From Stereum hirsutum FP-91666 SS1 (lineage: Eukaryota > Basidiomycota > Agaricomycetes > Russulales > Stereaceae), in NCBI RefSeq assembly GCF_000264905.1, contig NW_006763137.1:1232339-1296338 (forward strand): a stretch of 64,000 nt of DNA, in the 5' to 3' direction. The notes under the pieces are model-generated. The model ran no database searches and was not told the origin of the DNA. It worked only from the letters and a program-made list of their open reading frames with translations. Made by a program: the position numbers and the translations under genes. Below, in pieces: positions 1 through 55,240 of this stretch (the stretch's first letter is position 1; each line of letters starts with the position of its first letter).

Positions 1-3000
1 CGACAAATCCGGATAAAACGGCACCAGCGCATCTTCCGCCCCAAGATACAGCGCATTATAAACCCTCCAATACACCTCCCTGACCTTCCTCGCCGGATGG
101 AACAGACCCTGAAGGACATAGTTCAACAGCACGCCCGGCCCCAGCGTCACCCTCATCGCCTCGATCGCGTCCATGACCGCTCCGATAACGTGCGGCGAGG
201 TCTCGAAACAGTTCGGCCAGACGAGGTTCATGAGATGCATCATCGAGTCTTCGCAGCCGAGACCGGCGACACCGAGCGCGAGATGTTTGACGATCGTGCT
301 TGCCGTTTGACGATGCACGAGATCACGGTCCGTCAGTGCGTCTTCGAGCATGGTGACGACCGAGTCGACATAGTAAGCCGATTGAGGACCGACATACTCG
401 AACACGAACGAGAGGGCTTTCAGACAGCCCGTGCGGACGTTGAGTTCGGCGGTACGATATTCGTTGAGGATGGCGGGGATGCAGGTGAAGGGACCGCAGG
501 TCTCGGCGACGATGGCGATGGCGACGGTACTACACACTCGGGACTGACGTTCTTGGACGCGGAGGTTGGTGAGGAGGACGGAGAGGACGTCTTGTGGACC
601 GAGCGATTTGGCGATGTAGCCGAAGGAGTTGACGGCCGCGCGACGGATGCCTTTCTTGTGCGCTTTGAGGAGATCGAGGAGCTCGAAACAGATACGCATC
701 CATTCGCGAGCGGGGACGAACTCGGCACCACGATCGGCTGGAAGAGGGAGGGGGTATGTGGCATTAGTATGAAGTGGAAGATAGTAAAACTAAGAGAAAG
801 GCTCACCGATACGACCGATCAAGTTGATGGATGCTTCCTGCACCTTCTCGTGACGGTTACGAAGAATAGGTGTCATCCGGGGCACTGAAAAAAAAACGTC
901 GACCAGTTAACAAATTGTACGATCAAGAGAACATACGGTTGAATCGACTCACAAAGATCCTTTACAGGTGGGTTCATCTGTGTCATACCCACGACGTTGG
1001 CGATAGCACCCTCAGCAGCGATGATACTACCGAGTGTATCAGGATACTCCTCTCCCAACTGCTCGAACAACACCAAGCCGAGTTTGCTCAGCAGTTGGTC
1101 CTCGCCACACTGCTTGATCACCACAGCCAACCGCGTGGTGAGATCGGCAGCCTGTTGGCGGACTTTCGCACTCTTATTATTGAGACGCCAAAGGATCGTC
1201 GAGACGATCTGGGTCAAGTATGGCTTGACGCGGATACCTGGGGGAGAAAAGGGGCCGTCAGCAAAGGAAGCCATGAAAAGTCGGCAGTGGTGTGAAGACT
1301 TACCAAGAGCATTGACGACGGTTCCAAACCCATCCAACATGACCTGGTCCTCTGTCGTCTGCTCCTGGAACGAGTAGATAATCCCGTCGACCAACCTAAC
1401 CTCCAGCCTCTCATCGATATCCGACGCTCCCAAACTCGCCACAACCTTCGTGATCGTCTCCATAACCATCTTCCTATACGGCTCCGCCTCGTCCTTCAGC
1501 TCATTCACGATCCTCCCAATGATTTCCGCCGCTCCCGCCTTCTGAGCCAACTCGACCGTCGTCTCCACGACCTGTCGGTAGTTCCTCCTATCGAGCGCCA
1601 TGCGCCTGACCCAGAATGCCTTGAAGAAGTCTGGGAGGATATCCTTGCGAATATAGCCTGGCGTGACACCTTCGGTGGCGGCGCACTGCTTGACGACTTT
1701 GAGAACGATCTTCTTCATCTCTTCGTCTGACGTTTGGAACTCTCGGATGAGGATGACAGTGACTTCTTTGGTGTAGTAAGAGGCGTATTCCGGGTCCATG
1801 AGGGGGATGATGAAACCAATGGCCTTGAGGAAGGCGGCAAGACCTTTACCACGGTGAAGACGGATACCGAGCCAAAGGGGCTTGAGGACGTTGTCGAACG
1901 ATTCGATACCGTAGGGAGCAGCGGCTTCGGCGAGGGCAGCCAATCCGAGTGCAGTCATGGTTCGGACCTTCTGCTGTTCGTCCGAGAGACCGTGGGCGAT
2001 ACAGTCCACGAGATTGCGGAGGTGGGGGAGTACGGCGCAGCCCATCATGATCGCAATCTGCTGAACAATACGGATACCGGTGTGGCGAGCCTGCCACGAC
2101 TTCTTGGAACGACAGACGGCTTTCAAAAAGGGCAGGAGCGAGGGAATACCGAGAGCAGACGCTACGACTGAGAATGCACGGGCTGTGGTATTACGGACAT
2201 ATTCGTCGGCGTGGTCTATATCGGGTCGCATGGTGGAAATCATATGCGCAAGACCAGCAGCTTTGGACAAGTTGGAGATAATCTCGCGTCCTTCGACACG
2301 GGCGTAGTAGTCTTCGTCAATGAGCAAGGGCTCAATGACGACGAGAATTTTGTGGACGTACGGCCTAACGAGATCATCGAGTTTGTAGAGGACACGGTCA
2401 ATGACCTTGACGAGCAAGTGACGCTCTTGATCCTCGAGGGTCCGTTCCATAAGAAGAGGGAGAATCTTGTCGAAGAGGGGACCTGCGCCAAAGTCGCGGG
2501 CCTTGTCGGTGATCTGCCGCAGAGCGGTCTTTCGAACGGGTGGCGTGCCGTTCTTGATTTTGAGAAGCAGGCGCATAATCTTGCGCTCCTTCATCTCGTC
2601 GACGGAGAGTTCTGTCTCGTCCTCCTCCTTGAGAATTTTGGCAAAATATTGAGCATCCTCCGCCTTGAAGAACGCGAGGTTGCCGACGCCAGGAATATCT
2701 GTGGGTAGTTCGGGTGCAAGACCGGCAGCAGCAGCCATTGCTGCTGCATCAGAGCTCTCTTGAATCTGGAAGCCACCAAGGTCGGCGACGGGGGTCGCCT
2801 GGAGTTTCCTAGGAGCGACAGAGGGAGCATAGCCGGGAGGTGGGGTGACAATGGCGTATCCCTGAGAAGGCAAGACAGCGTCGAGTTCCTCGTCGGTGAG
2901 ATAGCGGTTGTGCTTCTCCTCCTGCATGAAGCCTGGCGCGTTCATGATGATAGGCGTCATGGGTACTTCGACGGGGCCTTGGCCGGCAACGGGTGTCTGG

Positions 3001-3611
3001 TCCCAACGAGAACGTTTGGGAGTCTCTCCAACAGCAGCGACATCAGCAGGAGTAGCGTCCCACCTTGACCGTCTCTTTTTCGGCGCTGAGGCCTCCAGAG
3101 CCTCAGCCGACCACTCTCCAGGTGCCTCGTTCTCCTTCTTCTCCTCTGCCTTCTCCGGCTCCGCGACGTCCCACCGACGCTTGCGCTTCTGTCCAGCAGC
3201 GGCCGCATTGGCAAGCTCCTGCGCGGCCTCCTCGATGTCCTTCGCAGGCGGCGTCTTGTCGAGGTCCATCTTCATCTTGCCCTCTTCCCTGTCCTGCTTC
3301 TCCTTCTCCTCGATAGCTCTCCTCACCCTCTGCTCCTCCTTCTCCAACCTCTGCAGCCTCATAGCCTCCTTATATCCTCCCTCGCCTTCGGCACCCTCTT
3401 CTCCATCCGCAAAAGCATCGGCAGACTCGTTCGCAGTGCGGTTGAATCGTCGTTTGTGGTAGTCGCCCTGGCGCTGAGCAATCTGACGTTTCGAGGCCGT
3501 CTCTGCGAAAGGGTCGACGTCCTCTTCCTCGGCGAGCTCCTCGAACTCCCTGAGAACGTCCTTCGGGGCGGTGAAAGAGTCGATGAGCCGGGGTGAATTC
3601 GGAGCAGACAT
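1..3611 (-). CDS. HSH155: Splicing factor 3b subunit 1 (SF3B1/Hsh155), 3' end cut by window edge
   Basis: This is the large HEAT-repeat subunit of the U2 snRNP SF3b complex, which stabilises U2 on the branch site during pre-mRNA splicing in the nucleus. Exons, in genomic order, are <1-737, 807-884, 953-1237 and 1304-3611. The start at 3611 gives [13 protein letters not shown]. The N-terminal part is charged and carries the repeated RWD(A/Q)TP motifs typical of the family (KRSRWDQTP). A long HEAT array follows, with family-defining stretches such as [19 protein letters not shown] across the 885-952 intron and [20 protein letters not shown]. Reading continues to [10 protein letters not shown] at the window edge, so only about the last 20 codons should be missing. 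An in-frame ATG further upstream (near 3767) is probably not used, because the family start lies at 3611. Identification is very secure. Exon junctions were chosen because they restore known family sequence. Confidence 0.97.
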
Positions 3612-3914
3612 TGTGGTTGACGTGAAAGGAGTGGTCGTGGTCGTGGCAAGAGCCTGAGCAAGACAGACTCGACTTCGAGCAGAGTTCAGGCCGGCGATGA
3701 CTAAGCGCGATGTGGCGCTTAAACACGTGGCAGGAGACGAGCAAGGCGGTGGCGTGAACAAGTTCAACCACGATCAGCCACGATCATTGTGGGACCAAGC
3801 GATGTCTTCACCCGAAGTTGACCGTTTCGTGACGGTGCATTCAGCGGTTCCGCTCTCTGTTGGTCCAACGCCGTTCGATAAGATCCTATTGTTCGCTTAG
3901 GATGGCCGTGTGGC
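3612..3914. promoter_or_regulatory. Upstream region of SF3B1; part is duplicated at about 21.77-21.94 kb
   Basis: This is the gap between the SF3B1 start and the SUB2 relic, and it should contain the SF3B1 promoter and 5' leader. About 3677-3885 is clearly similar, in the same orientation, to about 21772-21945 upstream of the kinase gene at 22092. Shared blocks include GCAAGGCGGTGGCGTGAACA and GAACAAGTTCAACCACGATC. No other gene is seen here. Confidence 0.6.
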
Positions 3915-11910: not shown

Positions 11911-12180
11911 CTCTCTTGAACTCTCTACTGTCTCTTTTTATGTCTATCTGTTATCTGTTCATCTCGTCTCATCCTTTTTTTACTTTACACCTTCAGCTTG
12001 TGTTGTGCCGCTCTGCTATAATATATTCTGTATTCTGCCTAGTATTGCCAGCTTCCAAATCTGAAAGGACCCAACACTGAGAGATGAAGAGAACTAAAGC
12101 CTCAGATGTACTGATGAGAAGATTATCTGTGCATGTCTGAATATGCAAACTGACTTGGACACTGGCAACACTATAGTAGT

Positions 12181-12599
12181 CGCGAAAATATATCATCCAC
12201 TCATTCACATCAGTTGTATGATTTATGTAGGTAGGAAAAATACCAATCACAGTCATTTCTCAGAGTGTATAGTGTTGGACAAGTGATCCATGACCTGGAG
12301 CAATTCAGCTAAGATATTCGATCTCACCACCGCTTGACCACTGGCTCCCAAAAAGGCAAGTGGCGGGCGTTGTGGCACTGGCGTGAGGCGTAGCAGTAAC
12401 AAACCACATGTGAATACATGTCATCCACTCATTCACATCAGTTCTATGATTTATGTAGGCAAGAAGTATATACATTGGAGTGATATTACGGTTTGTGCAA
12501 GGTTGCGCACAGGATCCATGACCTGTAGTAATTCGAGTCCGGAAATTCTACCTGCCTCAGTGACGACCCAAAAAGGCAAGTGGCAATACTGTGGCGTTG
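12181..12599 (+). repeat. Left TIR of integrase/alpha-kinase element, two subrepeats
   Basis: It matches 18661-19080 in inverted orientation almost base for base. It is itself a pair of related units of about 230 bp. CCACTCATTCACATCAGTT occurs near 12195 and 12424, ATCCATGACCTG near 12286 and 12512, and CAAAAAGGCAAGTGGC near 12349 and 12570. The open frame it contains is repeated in the other TIR and is not a gene. Confidence 0.9.
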
Positions 12600-12717
12600 C
12601 AATAGCTTACTCCGAACTCTCAGTTCATTGACTTTGCTGTACTCGTTAGTTACCGTCTTGAAGACTTTTCACCTCACCTTTGTCATATATATTTTATGCC
12701 TAATCCCACAGGCAAAA

Positions 12718-14648
12718 ATGGTGTCACCAAAGGATGTCGTACGTCTCGAGTTACCTTATCTCGTTCCCAGTCTCGAAATTGGCACTGTAATACTAACAAC
12801 CTCGTATACTCAAGCCCCTCATGAAGTCATCCGGCCTGTCATTGAGGATCTTGTGCAGCGAGGCTATAACAATAATGACATTGTTCTGGAGTTGCGAGAT
12901 CATTATGATATGGATAGGTATAATGTTAGGTAATTTTTCGTTCGTTCGTTCCACTGTTCCGATAGTGCTATACACGACTAGTGACTAGTGTTCTCATGTC
13001 CCATTTCTCATCTATAGCGTTCCCTTGCTCAAAAAGCTGCGGAGCCAATGGCAGATACGGTCAGCTCGTGGAAAGGGACATACTGTGAACAGCATCGGTC
13101 CTGCAGTTGAGCGTGTGCGAGCAAAATATCCAACAATGGGCTCCCATGAGATGAAGAGAGTCCTGTTGGCTGATGAGGAAGTCGATGTCAGCAGGTATTT
13201 TTCTCAAACTCTACCTCTTACATATACCTTTTTCTTTCTCTGACGACGATATAATAAACAGGCCAAAAATCTTGGACTATATGCACATCCATCATCATCA
13301 GGAAGTTCTCGCCCGCAAGTCTCATGTGCTGAAACGTAAGACGTTCTGGTGCGCTGGAGTCAATGACCTCTGGGTTATGGACCAGCACGACAAGTGGCGG
13401 AAGTATCAGCTCTTCTGTCACGTTGGACTTGAGCCCTTCTCTGGAACTTGTCTCTGGCTGAAAGTGTGGTGGACAAACCGCAATCCCCGTCTTATTACCG
13501 GCTACTATGCTGAGACAATCAAGAACGTAAATTATGGTATACATCCAGAATAATTTCCTCTGTAGCTATTGATACTGATCGACCAATTTATGTAGAAATG
13601 CCACTCCTGACTCAAAGCGACGCTGGAACGGAGAACTTTGGGGTCGCCAACGTCCACACTATTCTTCGCCACCGCCAAGATCCCGCCCTTTCTGCGTCTC
13701 TTCAGCATAAGTTCATGGTCAACAATAAGAATATCAAGCCTGAGGTTTTCTGGGGCATGTTTCGGAGAAACTGGACACCAGGGTACGAGGATGTGTTCGA
13801 GTATGGATTGGTACATGGATTGTATGATCCCGATAACATGATGGAACGGTACGTCAGTTATCAGCTTCAGTTTCTTGAGCCCACGTGAACGCTATGCTCA
13901 ACTCATGAGTGTCAAAGGACTGTATTCCACTACTTGAGCATCCCTTGGCTACAGAAGGAACTCGACAACTATCGCAAGCGATTCAACGACACTAAAAGAC
14001 GCTACCACAAGCACAAGGTCCTCCCCCATGGCCGCCCAAATACGATATATAACAGGCCACGCAGGTTCCAGACTGAGAATTTTGGGGTAGGGATTCACAG
14101 TTAGAACTCGCCCGTAATTGTGCGTTCACTAATCTTACGATTACCCATAGGTCAAGGTGGACCCCGAGCTATTGGACGAGGTTCGGGAGGCCCATGCCCC
14201 TTCAAATCACTATGTCTTCGATCTTGTCCCTCCAGAGGTTGATGCGTACGCACGAGAGTTCATGGAGCATATGGGATGGCCAGAGGTAAACCGAGACAGT
14301 TTCTGGGATATTTACAGCGAGTTACTGGGCTACTTTGAGGCCCTAGAGGGCGAAGAGAACCTTGAGGTGGCGCTCACTGAGCGAGCAGCAGAGCCATGTC
14401 CACCACAAGGCTTCACACAGGAGGATCATCAGTTTGTCCCCGTTCTCCCAAACCTGAAACCAGCTCGGATTGCCCAAGGATCGGCCTTAACATCAGAGGG
14501 TGGTGTAGACGCCGAGGTGCAGGACATGAAGGGGTCAGGCTCAGGATCGGACACGGACTCGGAATATGACGAGGTGCCGTTGAAGGAAGTTGTCGCGGTA
14601 TATTCTTCAGACGACTCTGAAGACTCAGGGGTTGTCTTTAGTGACTAG
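12718..14648 (+). CDS. Integrase-type (rve/DDE) transposase, 527 aa
   Basis: This is probably the enzyme that cuts and joins the surrounding element. Exons 12718-12929, 13018-13194, 13262-13536, 13596-13848, 13918-14086 and 14151-14648 join in phase to 1584 nt. The N-terminal part (about residues 1-130) looks like a compact recognition domain. The catalytic core follows. Candidate triad residues are D170 in DLWVMDQHDKW, D230 in TQSDAGTEN and E271 in KPEVFWGMFRR, with spacings of 59 and 40 that fit integrase folds of the retroviral/Ginger type. The W residues around the first Asp and the NxxxIKxE-F-W pattern at the Glu are as in fungal integrase-core proteins. The C-terminal 165 residues (last exon) are acidic and Ser-rich, probably disordered. 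The start at 12718 was chosen because the upstream frame lies in TIR sequence. The assignment to the integrase fold is fairly secure; the exact superfamily is not. Confidence 0.8.
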
Positions 14649-14926
14649 TAGTACTGATGTGTTCTGTGTTTAGAATGGTTTTTATTACCAGTTATCCATG
14701 GGCCCATGGCCGTGTTTGGTCCGATGTGTTTGGTCTGATCGCGCTTTGACTTGCCAAAACAAGAAATTTGCCAAAAAAGCGCCACAAATCCTGGGCCATT
14801 CAGCCTCTGCACATTTGTCCTTTTTTCTTCGTCCTGGCTGTCCTCGTCGTTGTCCACATCTGCTAAGTGTCTTTAACACATATCCCTTGATTTCTTGACC
14901 ATCACTCTTATCTTCCACGCATCATA
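14649..14926. promoter_or_regulatory. Spacer between integrase and alpha-kinase genes
   Basis: This 278-bp stretch has no open frame worth calling. It must hold the integrase 3' end and the alpha-kinase promoter and leader. The two genes are tandem and closely spaced, as expected for a compact mobile unit. Confidence 0.5.
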
Positions 14927-17900
14927 ATGGCCGACCACCTCATTGACTTCACCCCAGCCAATGTTGCCACAGTTGACTGCGAGCGCCTCGGCTGTACTTG
15001 GACTGGTCCTCAGACCCAGTGCTCTATTATTAATGGCAGGGACCCTGAGACAGGAGCGCCTACCAAAAAGGTGTGCTGTCCCGGATGCACAGACCACTAT
15101 CAGGCGCGCAAAACCGGTGAAAAGCGCAGGGCTGCACAGGAGCAGGAGCGTCACGGGGCGCCATCGTGTACGTATGACCTTCTCTGATTAGCAATCTCCT
15201 TATTGATTTATTCTGTCATGTCCCCCTCTAATAGTGGAGTTTACAACGCCAGCCTCTGCCGGACCAAAGCTCATATCTGACAAGGCATTGAGTAAAGCTC
15301 TAGCTGCGGCAAAACGTGGTCGTAAGTCACCTATGATATCAATCTCCTCAATCTTGATTCCGAGTTCTTCTACCTTCTTATATCTTCACGCCAGATGCTA
15401 CCCTCCCCACTCGACGCATATCAGGTGCTCCGGCGAACTCTAGCAGTTCAAGTCGGGCCGGCTCTATGGCTCCACCGCCCGTACCTGTGAAGGTGCGAGC
15501 TTCTTCTCATGGCACCATTTACCTAATCCTTACGCAACTCGACAGTCCTTTGGCTATAAGCAGGATGTACATTCGAAGTACTTCCATAACCGGGACAGGG
15601 TTCTAGAGAAAACAACGAGTATGAACTCTGGAGGAGGCGGCCGGCTGGTAGATATAGCTATAAGTCTGCAGACCGTAGGAGAGTCTGGCAAAGGGGGCAC
15701 CAATCTTATTGGGGTATGTTCCACCAATATTTCATTTAGTCCGGCCATTATTCTTGTCCATCAAAGAGAAGCTGACTTTGTGACAGAATTCGGATTATAA
15801 CATCTTGGTTTCGGAGAACATCACAAAATACGATCTCCACAACAGTCTATGGGAGACACTTGAGGAGGACTGGGTCAATTGGTCGCTGGGATTTCCCCTA
15901 AAACAGCACGAGACAACGCTCTGCAAATATAAGAAACTTTTGGTCTACAAGTTCAGTTACGGTCCCCGCATTGGAAGTGAATTAGCCATTCGAGATCTAC
16001 TTTACCGGACGAACGCAAAAAGCTTAGGCCACCCAGTCTTCAACTCCAATGTCAAGCCCAGACTTTACCTGCTTGTTGAACGTGAAAAGTATATGGCCGC
16101 TCTTGAATACAGAGAACGCGTGGAGGCAGATGTAAGTCCATATTTACCAACTTAGTATCTCCCACGTTTTGTCTCTGACAAGTTCGACCTTAGCTGCCTG
16201 TCGGAGATGATGAGATTCAGGGGTATGATGGCGGCAACATCAACAGCGACGGTGATGGTGAGTTTCACCGACCAGAGGATGTGGAATATGATTCTGGTTC
16301 CGAATTTCAGGTGCGTAGATCCCCAGCCTAGCACATTGTCGAATGTCAGGTCTGCCTCTAAAATATACCTGGTTCAATAGAACGAGGTTGTTCGCCCCGT
16401 CAATCATGCTGGACGTGCTATTGCCAAACGGAAAGTACCAGAGCCTGAGGGAACAGACTCAGAGGTACGTTATATCAAGATTTTCTACTCAAGTACCATG
16501 CTTAGTCTTTGGAATACTTCGAAGCAGACCCTGGATATTGCAAACCAGAGCGATGCTCCTAGCACCAAGCGTGCTCGTACACATGGGCAGACGACTCGGA
16601 GACACCATAAGCCCCGCTCGACTCCTGCTGCTAGCTCTACCCAGCAGACATCTCTCTCGGATCCCATTGTCGTGGATGCAAACGACTCCGCCGACTCCGC
16701 CGGAACTGACGATACCGACACCCTTTTTCCGTTACAAGTCTCGAGTCATCCCATTCCGAAAACGTCCCGCTTCCAAGTGCCAAACCCCGATCTGCTACGC
16801 AAGGCTCTCGTTATGCAGAAAGATCTTGATTCTCAGGCCGTTCAGCCCCGTATGTTATATTTCACCTCTAAGTCATAAACCATCCACTCACAAATTCACT
16901 CACTGTAGTAGACCACGGTGACGCTAACTTCACCGTGCTTCTTCTGGAGATCCCGGAACATTCATTCAACGAGCTCCTTGAACGGCCTGGTATGCGCTTA
17001 CACTGGGATCCTGCTGTGGCGCCCCAAGCTAGTATTTCCGTCTGGACGCGTTCCAAGGACATGCTTGGTGCCGCTGGTAGCTTCAAGACGTGTCATCGTG
17101 CTGCCTTATACCCAATTCGTCTATCTCAATCGCAACAACCACTTTCATACGACCTTTCTCTAGTTACTTGGGTCGCCAAACGCTGCTTTCACCGTCCCGA
17201 ACGGCGCTCGAACGATGAGGAACTACCGAAACGTCAACGTTACCCGCACGTTCAGGAGCTGGGGTTGATGTTACGCGAGGCCAATTGTCTGTACTGGGGT
17301 GGAGTTCTGATGAGCCTGGTGTACTCCTTTGTGGATTCAGTGTTGGAGGAGGCAAACGAGAAGAAGGAGCTCGCCGACTTTGACGAAGTTCCTCGACTCA
17401 AGTTTGTTCGCTCTATCCTGGCCGTTCCCGAAGACAAGGCCAATCAAGTCTTCCTGCTTGAGGAGAGGATCAATGGGCCGTTCGTCAAGTATATCAGTAA
17501 CGCTTCAGCAACCGCATGCGAGCCGTTCGGTTACACGAAGAAGTCTAAGGCTAGGCGGACGGAGAACTGGATACGTGCCCAGTTTCTGTGTTTTGCCCAA
17601 CATGTGCAGTATGTTTTCACAGGGAAGTCTATCATTCTAACTGACTTACAAGGTGCCTTTAACATCTACTGCTGGCTGCGCATTACTTGACACATTATTG
17701 ATTCTTCTTCATCTATCCTAGGAGGGGGAGACTTATTGACGGATCCCCAAGTCCTCACATCCGCGTACGTGCTGTCAAATCTCCACCATCATTATATTCA
17801 CTCCACTAATTCATCTAGCAGCGCATATGCACAGAACTTCGGTGCAGGAAATTTGACACATGCGTTCGACGCATTCCCGTCACAGCACATCTGCAATGGA

Positions 17901-18476
17901 TTTTGTCGCTACTTTGATCTGGAGATACTCGAAGCCACGACTGAGACGGAAGACCCTGGAGAGAGGAACGAGAAGTATGAAGAGAATCGTGACCATGATG
18001 GTGGTGAGGAGGGTGGCAGTAACCGTGATGAGGGGTTGGAGAACGAGCGTGGGGAGGAGCATGGGGAGGAGCATGGGGAGGAGCATGGGGAGCTTGAAGC
18101 GAAGACGGGTGGGAAGGCCGGTGAGGAGGCTGAGGATGGGGTGGATGAATTGGATAGGTCTGAAGATGAGTCTAGCGCTGAACTAGGGAAGCAGCTGAAG
18201 GGAATAACGATGGATGTGGCGAGGGATGAAGGCGGGTCTGGGAGTAGAGGTGTGGCGGGGAATGGGAATGGGAATGTGGCGGAGAATATGGCGGAGGACG
18301 AGGGTAGTGCAGAAAGTGGCGCCGCAGAAACAATTGGGCTAGATAATAAGAGGTCTGGACCAGGGAAGGGAAGAGGAAGAGGAAGGGGTCGCAAGCAGGG
18401 GTGTGTGACGAAGGACAAGAAGGCTGGTAGTGCGAAGGAGAGCTTCAAGAAAAAACAGCTCTTCATCGAGGACTGA
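14927..18476 (+). CDS. Alpha-type (atypical) protein kinase, 968 aa, inside the TIR element
   Basis: Alpha-kinases are atypical Ser/Thr kinases (the eEF2-kinase/TRPM7/MHCK fold). Eleven exons join in phase to 2907 nt: 14927-15167, 15235-15321, 15395-15492, 15546-15713, 15787-16131, 16194-16310, 16381-16464, 16528-16849, 16909-17652, 17722-17764 and 17819-18476. The N-terminus has a Cys-rich patch (CERLGCTW, then KKVCCPGC) that may bind zinc. The kinase domain spans about residues 490-790. A glycine-containing loop with FKTCH and a VAKR lysine form the N-lobe. The C-lobe carries the diagnostic DLQGGGDLLTDPQ, then FGAGNLTHAF and the zinc-coordinating HICNGFC. The tail (about 180 residues) is acidic, with a GEEH repeat, and ends in a basic G-R-G-R-G-R stretch. 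The substrate is unknown. Position between the TIRs indicates cargo or a functional part of the element. The family call is secure. Confidence 0.85.
18051..18086 (+). repeat. 12-bp tandem repeat in alpha-kinase tail
   Basis: Three perfect copies of GGGGAGGAGCAT encode GEEHGEEHGEEH in the acidic C-terminal tail. Confidence 0.9.
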
Positions 18477-18660
18477 ACCGAGTCGCGGACTCGAATGGAT
18501 TTGTATGTTCTGTGTATCTAATCCCTGTGAGAATGTAACTGCACAAAAGTGCTGTTAGAATAGCAATCAAGGCTTCGTCCGTTTTCTAGTCCACTGTTGA
18601 CACTTTTCTCCGCTATGTGCTCGCATCAGACCCATGCCAGTGGCAGTCAAAGTGAGTTTA

Positions 18661-19080
18661 CAACGCCACAGTATTGCCACTTGCCTTTTTGGGTCGTCAC
18701 TGAGGCAGGTAGAATTTCCGGACTCGAATTACTACAGGTCATGGATCCTGTGCGCAACCTTGCACAAACCGTAATATCACTCCAATGTATATACTTCTTG
18801 CCTACATAAATCATAGAACTGATGTGAATGAGTGGATGACATGTATTCACATGTGGTTTGTTACTGCTACGCCTCACGCCGGTGCCACAACGCCCGCCAC
18901 TTGCCTTTTTGGGAGCCAGTGGTCAAGCGGTGGTGAGATCGAATATCTTAGCTGAATTGCTCCAGGTCATGGATCACTTGTCCAACACTATACACTCTGA
19001 GAAATGACTGTGATTGGTATGTTTCCTACCTACATAAATCATACAACTGGTGTGAATGAGTGGACATTATATATTTGCGA
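18661..19080 (-). repeat. Right TIR of integrase/alpha-kinase element
   Basis: This is the inverted copy of 12181-12599 with the same two-unit internal structure. The match stops sharply at 18661 on the inner side, where the left copy continues CAATAG and this copy continues TAAAC (reverse complement). Confidence 0.9.
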
Positions 19081-39532: not shown

Positions 39533-42326
39533 TCAGCTTGAAGCCCCCTCAGTAGTCCTCCTACCCCCAGTAGTCCTCCTACCCTCAGTGGTCCTCCTAG
39601 ATTTCTTCGCGCCAGAAGACTCGACATCATCCTCGGAATCAGCCTTCCTCTTGGTCTGCGAGCTCGAGGCCTTCCTTGGTCCATCGCCGTCTACCTTCGC
39701 GGCCTTCGCTGCAGCCAGCTTCTCCGCTTTCTCCTTTGCAGCCTTCCTGGCCCTCTCATGGAGCACAGCAGCAGGAGGCGAGCGTGGCAGGCAAGCCTTT
39801 GCCCTAAGATTACGTTGAGCCTGTTCCATCTCCCGATACTTGGCCCTTCCCTCGTCATCGGCCAGATTCTTGAGACGCTCTTCGGCAGCCGCAAAGATGG
39901 CGATGAACTTGTCGTGGATATCCGGCCAAGAGCGTGTTCGGTAAGCCTCTCGAAGAACATCATGAAGGTCGGTCACGACATCCTTGATCGGATGGAAATA
40001 AGCCTGTATGTGATCGGCGATGCTTTGTTGGAATTCGTCGACGTTCTTGATGATGAGCCGTTTGGCATCGCCGTTGCCATCGAAATCCTCGCCGTCGAAT
40101 AACTTTTTGATGGTCTTCATCAAGTAGTGATCAACACCGTCCTCCTTCTCGAAACCGACGCGCGTGCCGGGCCCTGTGTAAGAAATGCACAACCAACAAA
40201 GTATCCAGAAGAATCCTTCCATATCATGAATTGTTTCGTGACGAGTGACTATGTGCTTGATGACTCCTCCACCGATCCTGTTCGGGAAGTATGGACGATG
40301 GTTTACGTCCGATATCTCCGCACTCATGAATGCTAAAGTTCCCTGAAAAAGAATTCAGTTTAAACGTCTCCCTGCAAAACCATTCGCAAAGAACTTACTG
40401 TACGCGCGTCGTCGAACAAAGGCGTGTGGCCTTCGAATGCGACGGCATAGTCCAAGTCGATCATAATACCACGATGTGGCTTATTATCGTCAGTGAGTAG
40501 TACGTTGCCATCGCTGATATCACGGTGAAGAACACCCTTCTGGAATGCATATTGATGCCCTATCAAGAAAGAAATGTCAGTACGAGGAGAATTCGACGAG
40601 TCAGAAATATGAGGTCACCTTTGATAGCGTCATGTAGGCCCTTGACTAACTCCTGCAAGTCGTTGAATTCGGAGAGCGGGGAACCATGACTCTCCATTAC
40701 CGTGCGCGAGTGAATGCGTCCTTGTGGGTTGGGACCTGGGGAAGCTTCAAAATAATCCTCCCAGTCGCCGGGTATGCAGTCCTTGTGAAGATAGACATCA
40801 GGATGGTAGTTACGATTGCCGTCCTGTTTCGTCCGAACATTGAGCGGCGCTCCGGAATGGGCCAAGCCTTTTCGCACAAATTCCGAGGTTGTATCTTTTT
40901 TGCCATCGAATCTGACTATCTCATACGAATATATCTTGGCGAATCCAGGAGCATCGGGCCCTATCTTGTCGTAGAGTTCGCCCTCAAGTCCTCGACGGTC
41001 ATCCCGCCAGTTGTCCTTGATGACATAGATCTGAAAACGATTATGAGCAACGGCACAGGAAGAGGATTGAAGTACGACATCTGCACACCTTTCGTTTAGC
41101 TTCTTCAAGCTCCAGATCGGCCTCTTTCCATGCTAGCCACACCCTCGTAGCTCGCCCCCGAATCACCTCTCCTCGAGCCAGGCTGATAGCGCCCCAGATC
41201 ACGAAATTTTCTCGTTCGCCGTTGGGCTCCCTCTTCGGCTTCAGCATCGACAAAACCCACCAGTGCTGGTCGTAAGGATTATCAGGATTCAAGCGAGGCC
41301 CACCGGACACCTCCCACGAAGGGTATGACTTAAGAGGCTGATTCGGTTCGCTGGTTACCATTCTGAAGTGCGTGTCCCACCCAAGCTCGACGGGACTCTT
41401 CGTAGTCATGCATGCGATCACACGTATGAGCTGTTTCGGATCCTGAGATTAAGGGAAGCAGGGGCGAACCTAGTTAGTGCAGTGCTTAAGCGAGAAGGAT
41501 GAACAGACGACTCCACGCACCTCATGAACATCGAATGCTTTAGAGCCCAGCGCTCCCGACCGATCAACGTGCCATACAGTAAGGCGAGTCCTAGCATAGA
41601 CAAGACCAAAGATAAATCGTCGGTCGACCTGCTCGTAAAGCGCTTGACGACTATATTTCAGAATCTGAAGAAGGCCAGGTAGCACTCCTAACGGTTTCTT
41701 GACCTCGACGGGCGTCTGTATCAACCTCCACAGGTCCAATGAGTTGTACTTGCAGGCATGTAAGAGGCCTATGATATCAGGCTTGACATCGGCCGCTGCC
41801 TCTGAATTGACCTTCTTGTCATGCACGTCCTGCCAAACGAGGTTAAACGTCTTTGCACTACCACATGCCGCCGTAATCGCGCTGAAAATTGTCACAAGGG
41901 GCTCATAAATGGAATCCACGCTGGTCGGGTTGGTTGGAAGAGAAGTCCAGCACTTATTGGCTTCGGAATATAGTGGCTGATCTCCGCTTGTCAAGTCATC
42001 GTAGATTTGGTCTATGAGCGAATCGTCACAGGAGAAGAGACTGTCGAAGAAACCAAGAGTGTTGCCAAAGGCCGCGTAGCGCATCTCCGTAAGGATGATC
42101 TCCTCCGCTTCCGCAGCCGTCGTAACATTTCTGTCGGAGTGAGTGGCATGAGTCGAGCTTTTCTACAGAATGACACAAGGACACATTAAATATGGCTGCA
42201 CGAAGGCTGACACTGATGTCGTGTACGTGTGGCGTGACTTACAGGTGTCGTTTGCGTGTCGTCGACCGCCCCTTGCGTCTGAAGGGCGTTAGAGGAGCTT
42301 TCATCCATGGACGCGTTTGGTAACAT
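39533..42326 (-). CDS. FunK1-family protein kinase, copy A, 820 aa
   Basis: FunK1 kinases are a fungus-specific, strongly expanded kinase family in multicellular fungi; their substrates are unknown. Exons in genomic order are 39533-40342, 40399-40559, 40619-41030, 41089-41442, 41521-42162 and 42243-42326; they total 2463 nt. Family marks are HRDISDGNVLL (D511), the metal-binding segment MIDLDYAV in place of DFG (D532), and GTLAFMSAEI before the C-lobe (IHDMEGFFWILCWLC). The N-terminal about 450 residues are the usual FunK1 extension. The C-terminal tail is Lys/Ala-rich and ends in repeated RRTTEG/RRTTGG units. An inverted paralogue lies at 52312-55240, with the same intron positions and similar promoter sequence. 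No break was found, so this copy is likely functional. Confidence 0.9.
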
Positions 42327-52050: not shown

Positions 52051-52311
52051 GCCTGTTCGAGCGTTTTTTCAAGACTACAGGGTCATAGCTATCAGTGGCG
52101 GTGGGCGATGCAAGTCTTGCAGCGGCGATATTACAGTTCAATTACAGTTGTGACATTTCGCCAACGAGGCGACTCCGAGACGCGTTGGTGGCGTGAGAAT
52201 CGGAGTTGGAATCATGTACTTCCGTAGATTGTGTCTGTGTCATCGTTTCCACTCCGTACCACTTCCTCGAGGCCCTGGTCTTTTCGACTTATACTCTTTG
52301 CGCTCGTCGTT

Positions 52312-55240
52312 ATGGTACTAAACGCGTCCATGGATGAAAGCTCTTCTGACACCCTCGAGGCGCAGGGTGCGATCGACGACACGCAAACTATACCTGTAGG
52401 CACACGCGGCATCAGTGTCAGCCTTTGTACAGCCAGGTCTAACGTGTTTTTTGTGTCATTTTGTAGGGAAGTTCGTCGCAAATACGGACTCACGAAGCTC
52501 TTCTGTCATCGGATGCATATATATCGCATGCGGGCGTTTCTTCTTCGTCCCAAACCCCTATTCTCCAATATCCTCAGTATGCCTTCCTTCTATCAAAGTA
52601 GTCCCATCAAACAACGTACCTCTCACACAACTCACTTCAATAGAACGGCTACGACTGCCGCGGAAGCGGAGGAGATCATCCTTACAGAGATTCGCCACGC
52701 GGCCTTTGGCAACACTCCTGATTTCTTCGACACACTCTTCTCCTGCGACGATTCGTTCATAGACCAAATCTACGATAACTTGACAAGCGGAGATCACCCA
52801 CTATACTCCGAAACCAACAAGTGCTGGACTTCTCTTCCAACCAACCCGACCAGCGTGGATTCCATTTATGAGCCCCTTGTGACAATTTTCAACGCGATCA
52901 CAGCGGCATGTGGTAGTGCAAAGATGTTCAACCTCGTTTGGCAGGACGTGCATTCCAAGAAGGTCAATCCAGAGGCAGCAGCTGATGTCAAGCCTGATAT
53001 CATAGGTCTCTTACAGGCATGCGATTACGATTCATTTGACCTATGGAGGTTGATACAGACGGTTGTCGAGGTCAAGGAACCGATAGCGGTGCTACCCGGC
53101 CTTCTTCGGGTTCTCAAATATAGTCGTCAAGTGCTTTACGAGCAGGTGGACCGACGATTTATTTTTGGTCTTGTCTACGCTAAGACTCACCTTACTGTAT
53201 GGCTCGTTGATCGGTCGGGGGCGCTAGGCTCTCAATCATTCAATGTTCATGAGGTACATAGGAATCGCCTGTCCAGTCTCCTCCCTTGAACACTACACTA
53301 ACGAGGTTCGCCCCTGCTTTGCTTGATCTCAGGATCCGAAACAGCTCATACGTGTTATCGCATGCATGACCACAAAGAGTCCCTTCGAGCTTGGGTGGGA
53401 CACACACTTCAGAATGGTGACCAGCGAACCGAACGAGCGTCTTGAGTCGCGCCCTTCGTGGGAGGTGTCCGGTGGGAATCGCTTGAATCCTGATAATCCG
53501 TACGACCAGCACTGGTGGGTTTTGTCGGTCCTGAAACCGAATGCGGAGTCCAACGGCGAACGCGAAAATTTCGTGCTCTGGGGCGCTATCAGCGTGGCGC
53601 GAGGAGAGGTGATTTGCGGACGGGCTACGAGGGTGTGGCAAGCATGGAAACAGGCCGATCTCGAGCTTGAAGAAGCTAAACGAAAGGTGTGTCGATATCG
53701 TACCTGAATCCTCTTCCTGTGCCATTGCTCATGTCGGTTTCAGATCTATGTCATCAAGGACAACTGGCGAGATGATCATCGAGAACCTGAAGGCGAACTC
53801 CACCACAAAATAGGGTGTGATGCTCCTGGGATCGCTGTGGTATATTCGTATGAAATAGTCACGTTCGGTGGTAGAGCTGATACAACCTTGGAATTTGCGC
53901 AAAAAGGCTTGGCCCACTCCGGGGCGCCGCTCAATGTCTGGACGAGACAGGATTTCTACGATCGCGAGTACCATCCTAATATATACCTTCATAAGGACTG
54001 CATACCCGGCGACTGGGAGGATTATTTTGAAGTTTCCCAAGGTCCGAAATCTTCCAGCCCACGACGACGGACTCACTCGCGCATGGTAATTGAGAGTCAT
54101 GGTTCCCCGCTTTCCGAATTCGTCGACTTACAGGAATTAGTCAAGGGATTACATGACGCTATTAAAGGTGTAATCGTATTTCTGCCTCGTCGAATTCAAA
54201 CCCTACTGATATATCCGTCCTGGTAGGGCATCAATATGCATTCAAGAAGGGTGTTCTTCATCGGGACATCAGCGATGGCAACATCTTATTGACTGGTAAT
54301 AGTAAGCCAAACCGCGGTATCATTATCGACTTTGACAATGCCGTCGCATTCGAAGGTCACACGCCTTTGCTCGACGCTGCACGAACGGTAAGCTCGTTGC
54401 GAATGGTTCTGCGGCAAGACATTTACACTGAATTTTCTTCTAGGGAACTCTAGCATTCATGAGTGCGGAGATATCGGACGTAAACCATCGTCCATACTTC
54501 GATAACACGACCGATCAAGAATTCACATTTCCATCTCCTGAGGAGGATATCCCAGAGTCCAAGCACAAAGTCACCCGCCACGAAACAACCCATGACATGG
54601 AAAGGTTCTTCTGGATACTTTGTTGGCTGTGCATCTCTTTTACAGGACCAGGAACCCGCGTCGTTCTCGACCAGACGTCTTCGAAAGACCAATTTTTGAA
54701 GACCGTCATTGAGGAATTGTTTGAGGGAGAATCTTTCCAATTAATTCCGCCAACAAACGACTCATCATCACACTCAAAAACGATTTCCAACAAAAAATCT
54801 TGAACCACATGCAGATCTATTTACGTCCACTCGGGAACACCCTGGTGAAACTCTGGAACGTTCTTCGAGAGGCTTACCAGACCCGCTCCTGGTCGGATAT
54901 CCACGAGAAGTTCATCGCCATATTTGGGGCCGCCGAAGAGGGCCTCAAGGATCTGGCCGATGATGAGAAAAGGGCCAAGTATCGGGAGATAGAACAGGCT
55001 CAACGTACTGTTAGGGCAAAGGCTCTCCTGCCACGCTCGCCTCCTGCTGCTGTGCTCCGTGCGATGGCCAAGAAGGCTGCAGAGGAGAAAGCGGCTAAGC
55101 AGACCGCAGAGATCGCGAAGGTAAAGAACGAAGTATCAAGAAAGGCCTCGACCCCGAAGATCAAGAGGAAGGCAGATTCCGAGGATGATTTCAAGTCCTC
55201 TGGCGCGAAGAAGGCCAGGAAGGCCGCTGAGGAGGCTTGA
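52312..55240 (+). pseudogene. FunK1-family protein kinase, copy B, frameshifted after the kinase core
   Basis: This is an inverted paralogue of copy A with the same introns. Coding pieces are about 52312-53253, 53333-53686, 53744-54167, 54227-54387 and 54444 onward. Kinase marks are kept: LHRDISDGNILL, IIDFDNAV and GTLAFMSAEI. Compared with copy A one base is missing near 54748, just after FEGESFQLIP, so the main frame stops at 54803. The homologous tail (NKRLIITLKNDF to the stop at 55240) continues in the next frame. Exon 1 also differs: the region 52394-52620 is open and carries about 150 bp not found in copy A. The kinase core is complete, so a shortened enzyme lacking only the C-terminal about 150 residues is possible. 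A sequencing error could also explain the frameshift. Confidence 0.75.

Follow-up and report, generated by a model that had tools for sequence, protein, structure and literature searches.

Within a 64,000-nucleotide window of the Stereum hirsutum FP-91666 SS1 genome (part of contig NW_006763137.1, hereafter C7), we found what looks like a DNA transposon of approximately 6.9 kb that is bounded by terminal inverted repeats (TIRs) and encodes a DDE integrase-type transposase together with an alpha-kinase. The element is probably related to the IS3EU/GingerRoot group, and on balance we favor the view that its kinase serves as an element-borne helper. The gene pair itself is already known: an initial annotation of this DNA stated that no transposon with these two genes had been described, a statement overturned by the available part of Kojima 2025 (PMC12730594). 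What is new here is a variant without a TET gene, with long compound TIRs and with both genes on one strand.

The initial annotation had proposed inverted repeats of about 420 bp enclosing exactly two genes, and this arrangement was borne out. The two arms differ at nine positions in 423 bp, seven of which lie within the outer 60 bases, and the alignment of the arms deteriorates beyond 12180 and 19080. Each arm is itself composed of two diverged copies of an approximately 123-nt stretch at a spacing of 228 bp, with identities of 74% in the left arm and 71% in the right. The transposase and alpha-kinase genes lie wholly between the arms, both on the plus strand and separated by 278 bp (14649-14926).

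Both gene models were drawn by eye from the DNA sequence alone; in each, the reading frame is open throughout and all introns are of the GT..AG type (five of five in the transposase gene), in agreement with the intact splicing originally noted. The spliced transposase scored 48.7 bits against PF24764 (rva_4; cut-off 26). The proposed D170-D230-E271 triad, of the retroviral integrase type, was present at these residues. Among 121 aligned proteins (the window protein and 120 listed of 166 homologues), 115 keep the first residue, 117 the second, and 116 the third. Among the matches listed, the five best homologues showed 49-58% identity and came from Suillus, Cytidiella, Boletus, Grifola, and Serpula; the genus names come from the homologue search, and we take the classes of these nearest relatives to be Agaricomycetes. 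In the database, these PF24764 homologues are named as hypothetical or integrase core domain-containing proteins. The N-terminal domain is helical in the predicted structure of one homologue (P0001) and would be a DNA-binding domain. At the other end of the protein, at least 18% Asp plus Glu was found over the last 60 residues in 95 of the 120 listed homologues (P0001-P0120), and an aromatic-[ST]-D motif occurred within the same 60 residues in 58 of the 120, compared with 6.3 on average, and never more than 14, in 500 shuffles. Because these homologues share ancestry and include partial entries, this result is suggestive only, and the acidic tail with its motif is a possible docking or phosphorylation site.

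The spliced alpha-kinase scored 67 bits against PF02816 (cut-off 21.3; residues 1-817 submitted) and carries the full signature that had been annotated, namely TDLQGGGDLLTDPQ (753), FGAGNL (777), and QHICNGFC (792). The score above the Pfam cut-off and these signature residues place the protein, as judged from its sequence, in the alpha-kinase family. When the protein was aligned with three kinases from fungi, including one pair at 94% identity, residues K599, D754, Q756, D764, Q766, H740, H793, C795, and C799 were among those that did not vary; helped by alignments to solved alpha-kinases, we take them to be the ATP-binding, catalytic, and zinc positions. The kinase-domain profile matched TRPM7, eEF2K, and myosin heavy chain kinase A, and alignments with a TRP-related protein and eEF2K shared the DLQG/DIQG..TDP, FG..N, and HxCN motifs. 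In contrast, the N-terminal region differs from those of all three profile-matched kinases and instead has a Cys-rich stretch common to alpha-kinases of Suillus and Mycena, with Cys18, Cys23, Cys51, Cys54, and His57 invariant across four aligned kinases, two of them near-identical. A long tail, first acidic and then basic, follows the kinase domain. The homologue search returned four proteins, in Suillus and Mycena, and a profile search for further relatives returned a single weak and distant match. When the four kinase homologues were compared by eye with 120 of the 166 integrase homologues, no shared contig was seen. A candidate intron at 16465-16505 was dropped, as reading through it yields an intact frame, and the predicted structure of a kinase homologue was left unused (mean predicted local distance difference test score 28.3).

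Table. Features of the transposon-like element (positions within the window)
Feature	Position	Strand	Remarks
Left TIR	12180-12602	+	423 nt; diverged direct copies 12184-12306 and 12412-12534
DDE integrase-type transposase gene	12718-14648	+	six exons, 527 aa, PF24764
Transposase exons	12718-12929, 13018-13194, 13262-13536, 13596-13848, 13918-14086, 14151-14648	+	
Transposase N-terminal domain	12814-13132	+	split by first intron; recurs at the C2 kinase locus
Catalytic D170 codon	13380-13382	+	alignment; read from sequence
Catalytic D230 codon	13619-13621	+	alignment; read from sequence
Catalytic E271 codon	13742-13744	+	alignment; read from sequence
Alpha-kinase gene	14927-18476	+	ten exons, 988 aa, PF02816
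Alpha-kinase exons	14927-15167, 15235-15321, 15395-15492, 15546-15713, 15787-16131, 16194-16310, 16381-16849, 16909-17652, 17722-17764, 17822-18476	+	
First kinase exon, Cys-rich N-terminal stretch	14927-15167	+	Cys18, Cys23, Cys51, Cys54, His57
Right TIR	18658-19080	-	98% identity to left arm; direct copies 18726-18847 and 18954-19075

Searches of the genome (46 Mb, 38 contigs) ran exon by exon, and the locus counts given here are lower bounds. Alpha-kinases were detected at three loci, in the C7 window and on contigs C21 and C2 (Pfam alone gave C7 and C2), and next to each lies a fragment of a transposase of this type. The suggestion that homologous integrases might never neighbor an alpha-kinase therefore fails in this genome, and a chance pairing of transposase and kinase was rejected because the pair recurs. 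The window transposase protein matched the window and C21, where three integrase pieces (12473-14418, plus strand) were 55-63% identical to it. Kinase pieces at 15396-15017 (minus strand) of C21 showed identities of 48% (91 residues) and 82% (17 residues). This copy is broken, and its kinase is opposite in orientation to the integrase.

At the C2 locus (L012:3344-5473), an alpha-kinase whose domain reads as intact is directly preceded by an N-terminal domain of the transposase type. A profile made from the N-termini of 112 integrases detected this N-terminal domain on the same strand as the kinase, spread over two exons (E 2.4e-11 and 7.5e-10); the intron within it matches that of the window transposase gene in position and phase. 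The domain is 53% identical to that of P0061, a full-length integrase from another fungus, versus 20 of 77 residues to that of the window protein. Being nearer to integrases of other fungi, it indicates that neither C2 nor the window element is a recent copy of the other, and a genome search with the C2 domain returned only C2 itself. Because the genomic frame holds a stop codon between this domain and the kinase, a fusion of the two into one gene is at most possible. Downstream of the kinase lies a gene that reads, by eye only, like a uracil-DNA glycosylase. C2 may represent a domesticated locus.

Comparison of the window and C21 copies showed that synonymous differences were saturated in both genes (proportion of synonymous differences, pS, 0.78 for the transposase and 0.80 for the kinase). 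The corresponding nonsynonymous values (pN) stayed short of saturation, at 0.27 for the transposase (three pieces, with 62, 79, and 40 residues aligned) and 0.35 for the kinase (91 residues aligned) (Fisher p from rounded counts, 3e-22 and 5e-10, respectively). Decay of C21 after breakage would push pN up. At the codon level, these values indicate purifying selection on both genes, with the kinase constrained along with the transposase.

We then compared the element with known systems, the IS3EU features being compared by description. According to the available part of Kojima 2025 (PMC12730594), every TET+ IS3EU family, reported from seven rust species plus one family from Tuber indicum, has a transposase and an alpha-kinase gene. 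These families thus combine an IS3EU-type transposase and an alpha-kinase in one fungal DNA transposon, as the window element appears to do; this was the one report of an alpha-kinase in fungal transposons found in our literature search, and others may exist. In the TET+ families, a TET/JBP gene lies between transposase and kinase, which are in opposite orientations, whereas the window element has only the short intergenic gap and both genes in the same orientation. The rust families have 6-bp target-site duplications (TSDs), TAYGG..CCRTA ends, and TIRs longer than 30 bp, whereas the window element has TCGC ends and 423-bp TIRs with internal repeats. Their hosts are rusts and one truffle, whereas the host here is an Agaricomycete.

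IS3EU/GingerRoot elements (PMC10045372, as far as the accessible text goes) share the DDE transposase of integrase type, and their first catalytic D lies 100-300 residues from the N-terminus, compared with 170 in the window protein. Their TA..TA ends, which are described as invariable in complete IS3EU families, and their 6-bp TSD have no clear counterpart in the window element (see below). Styx of Zymoseptoria (PMC10853768) is likewise a multi-gene fungal transposon with TIRs and an IS3EU-related transposase, with a 6-bp TSD given for one copy. Of its four reading frames in the available description, two besides the transposase have GATA and CCHC motifs and one is DUF3577, with no alpha-kinase among them. 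Since IS3EU ends and TSD are unproven for the window element, we call it IS3EU-like instead of filing it as a member. Pattern scans of bacterial genomes, archaeal genomes, and viral contigs gave 5, 71, and 15 matches, none of which was confirmed as a relative; this is what one would expect if the element is fungal.

Several observations weigh against an IS3EU-like transposon carrying a kinase helper. The initial annotation anticipated several copies between matching TIRs; the TIR search of the genome found no second element with these repeats, and C21 and C2 have no recognizable TIRs. It also asked about TSDs of constant length, and no exact 6-bp direct repeat was found near the TIR ends; the best candidate, the 5-bp AGTAG, requires a 3-nt offset at the right end, so that there is no clear TSD for the window element. 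The ends as aligned read TCGC, unlike the TA of IS3EU, with TA sitting 6 and 7 bases outside, where the arms align poorly. Gene orientation is inconsistent, being the same in the window and opposite on C21 and in published IS3EU, and C2 has no integrase catalytic domain. The codon comparison with C21 is short for the kinase. Foldseek with the model of an integrase homologue gave no match at E <= 0.001; the assignment of the integrase fold relies on a second look at the Foldseek candidates with VIA-align, which found this fold in the homologue's model, and on the sequence.

Repeats found nowhere else and the lack of a clear TSD would also fit a host alpha-kinase locus that had transposon pieces land in it or on both sides of it, with the repeats being a local inverted duplication, and the glycosylase-like gene near the C2 kinase points the same way. 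We regard this account as improbable, given that both genes lie entirely inside the repeats, that all three kinase loci carry a transposase piece, and that C21 repeats the pair. In another account, elements spread alpha-kinases that mainly serve the host as ordinary signaling genes. The intact-looking C2 kinase beside a transposase N-terminal domain, without TIRs or catalytic domain, would then be a domesticated case, but there is only one such locus and the stop codon interrupts its genomic frame, and we consider a primary host role very improbable.

The kinase could also be a passive passenger, captured from a host by an ancestral element and without a role in transposition. Elsewhere in the genome, PF24764 gave 17 matches at eight other places by a lossy search that missed both the window gene and C21, and the catalytic domains at these places are only distantly like that of the window. 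At these eight loci (16-20 kb each, not always centered), tblastn with three kinases found no alpha-kinase, a further point against a kinase helper, and neither did the kinase profile over six-frame open reading frames (ORFs). The wider group therefore does not need the kinase. According to the available part of PMC12730594, TET/JBP genes have moved passively from one fungal transposon to another, which is likewise consistent with a passenger. Against a passenger stand the purifying selection that the kinase shows when the window is compared with C21, the conserved kinase signature residues, and the pairing at all three detected loci, diverged ones included, and overall we judge a mere passenger unlikely.

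Two of the eight loci have repeats of their own. On contig C15 (1045443-1049176; L040, L041), a 463-bp inverted repeat, 100% identical between its arms, surrounds a PF24764 integrase; a run of N in the interior could conceal a kinase and led us to leave this repeat out as support. On contig C28 (682-10941; L032, L033), a PF24764 integrase element has 86-bp TIRs starting TATGG[GA]CG and long minus-strand ORFs, four of them without a Pfam match above cut-off, and no TSD was seen. Because it joins a PF24764 integrase to TATGG ends, the terminal motif of IS3EU in rusts, C28 ties PF24764 indirectly to IS3EU-like ends. Within the window itself, a gene piece matching the splicing factor SF3B1 (PF08920) at 876-3773 on the minus strand locates the element in a gene-containing region. 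Matches to Pkinase_fungal (PF17667) were found at 52228-53286 and at 39536-40354, the second barely at the cut-off.

Under the helper reading that we favor, the helical N-terminal domain of the transposase would bind the doubled repeat units in the TIRs, and the transposase, judging from its triad and family, would then cut and insert the element. The kinase may phosphorylate the transposase, whose relatives have the acidic aromatic-[ST]-D tail. Alternatively, it may disable host silencing, by analogy with TET/JBP enzymes in sister elements, which the available text of Kojima 2025 (PMC12730594) suggests help transposons escape methylation. A kinase that helps the transposase or counters silencing is our leading guess. 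Part of the element may occasionally stay behind as a host gene, with C2 perhaps being one case.

The initial annotation also held that alpha-kinases are expanded in Agaricomycetes, which does not match the three loci detected in this genome; the documented expansion is in rusts, where the family is described as highly expanded, with counts of 79 and 39 in a PF02816 table row, in the accessible part of PMC4469406. As rust TET+ IS3EU elements carry an alpha-kinase, transposon-borne spread of the kinase in rusts is a fair hypothesis, and by this analogy it is plausible that the expansion there has ridden on such elements. Only tentatively do we entertain the broader proposal that the alpha-kinase is the standing second gene, an activator or anti-silencing enzyme, of one ancient basidiomycete IS3EU-like lineage, from which fungal alpha-kinases, including the rust expansion and C2, would largely descend. 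A kinase kept under selection in a transposon would, if true, mean that the element uses phosphorylation to manipulate the host or its own transposase, for which the TET/JBP dioxygenases of fungal elements offer a known parallel. A transposon-borne spread would, if true, explain simply where the many alpha-kinases of some fungi came from; thanks to the pairing, genome comparison can test both ideas directly.
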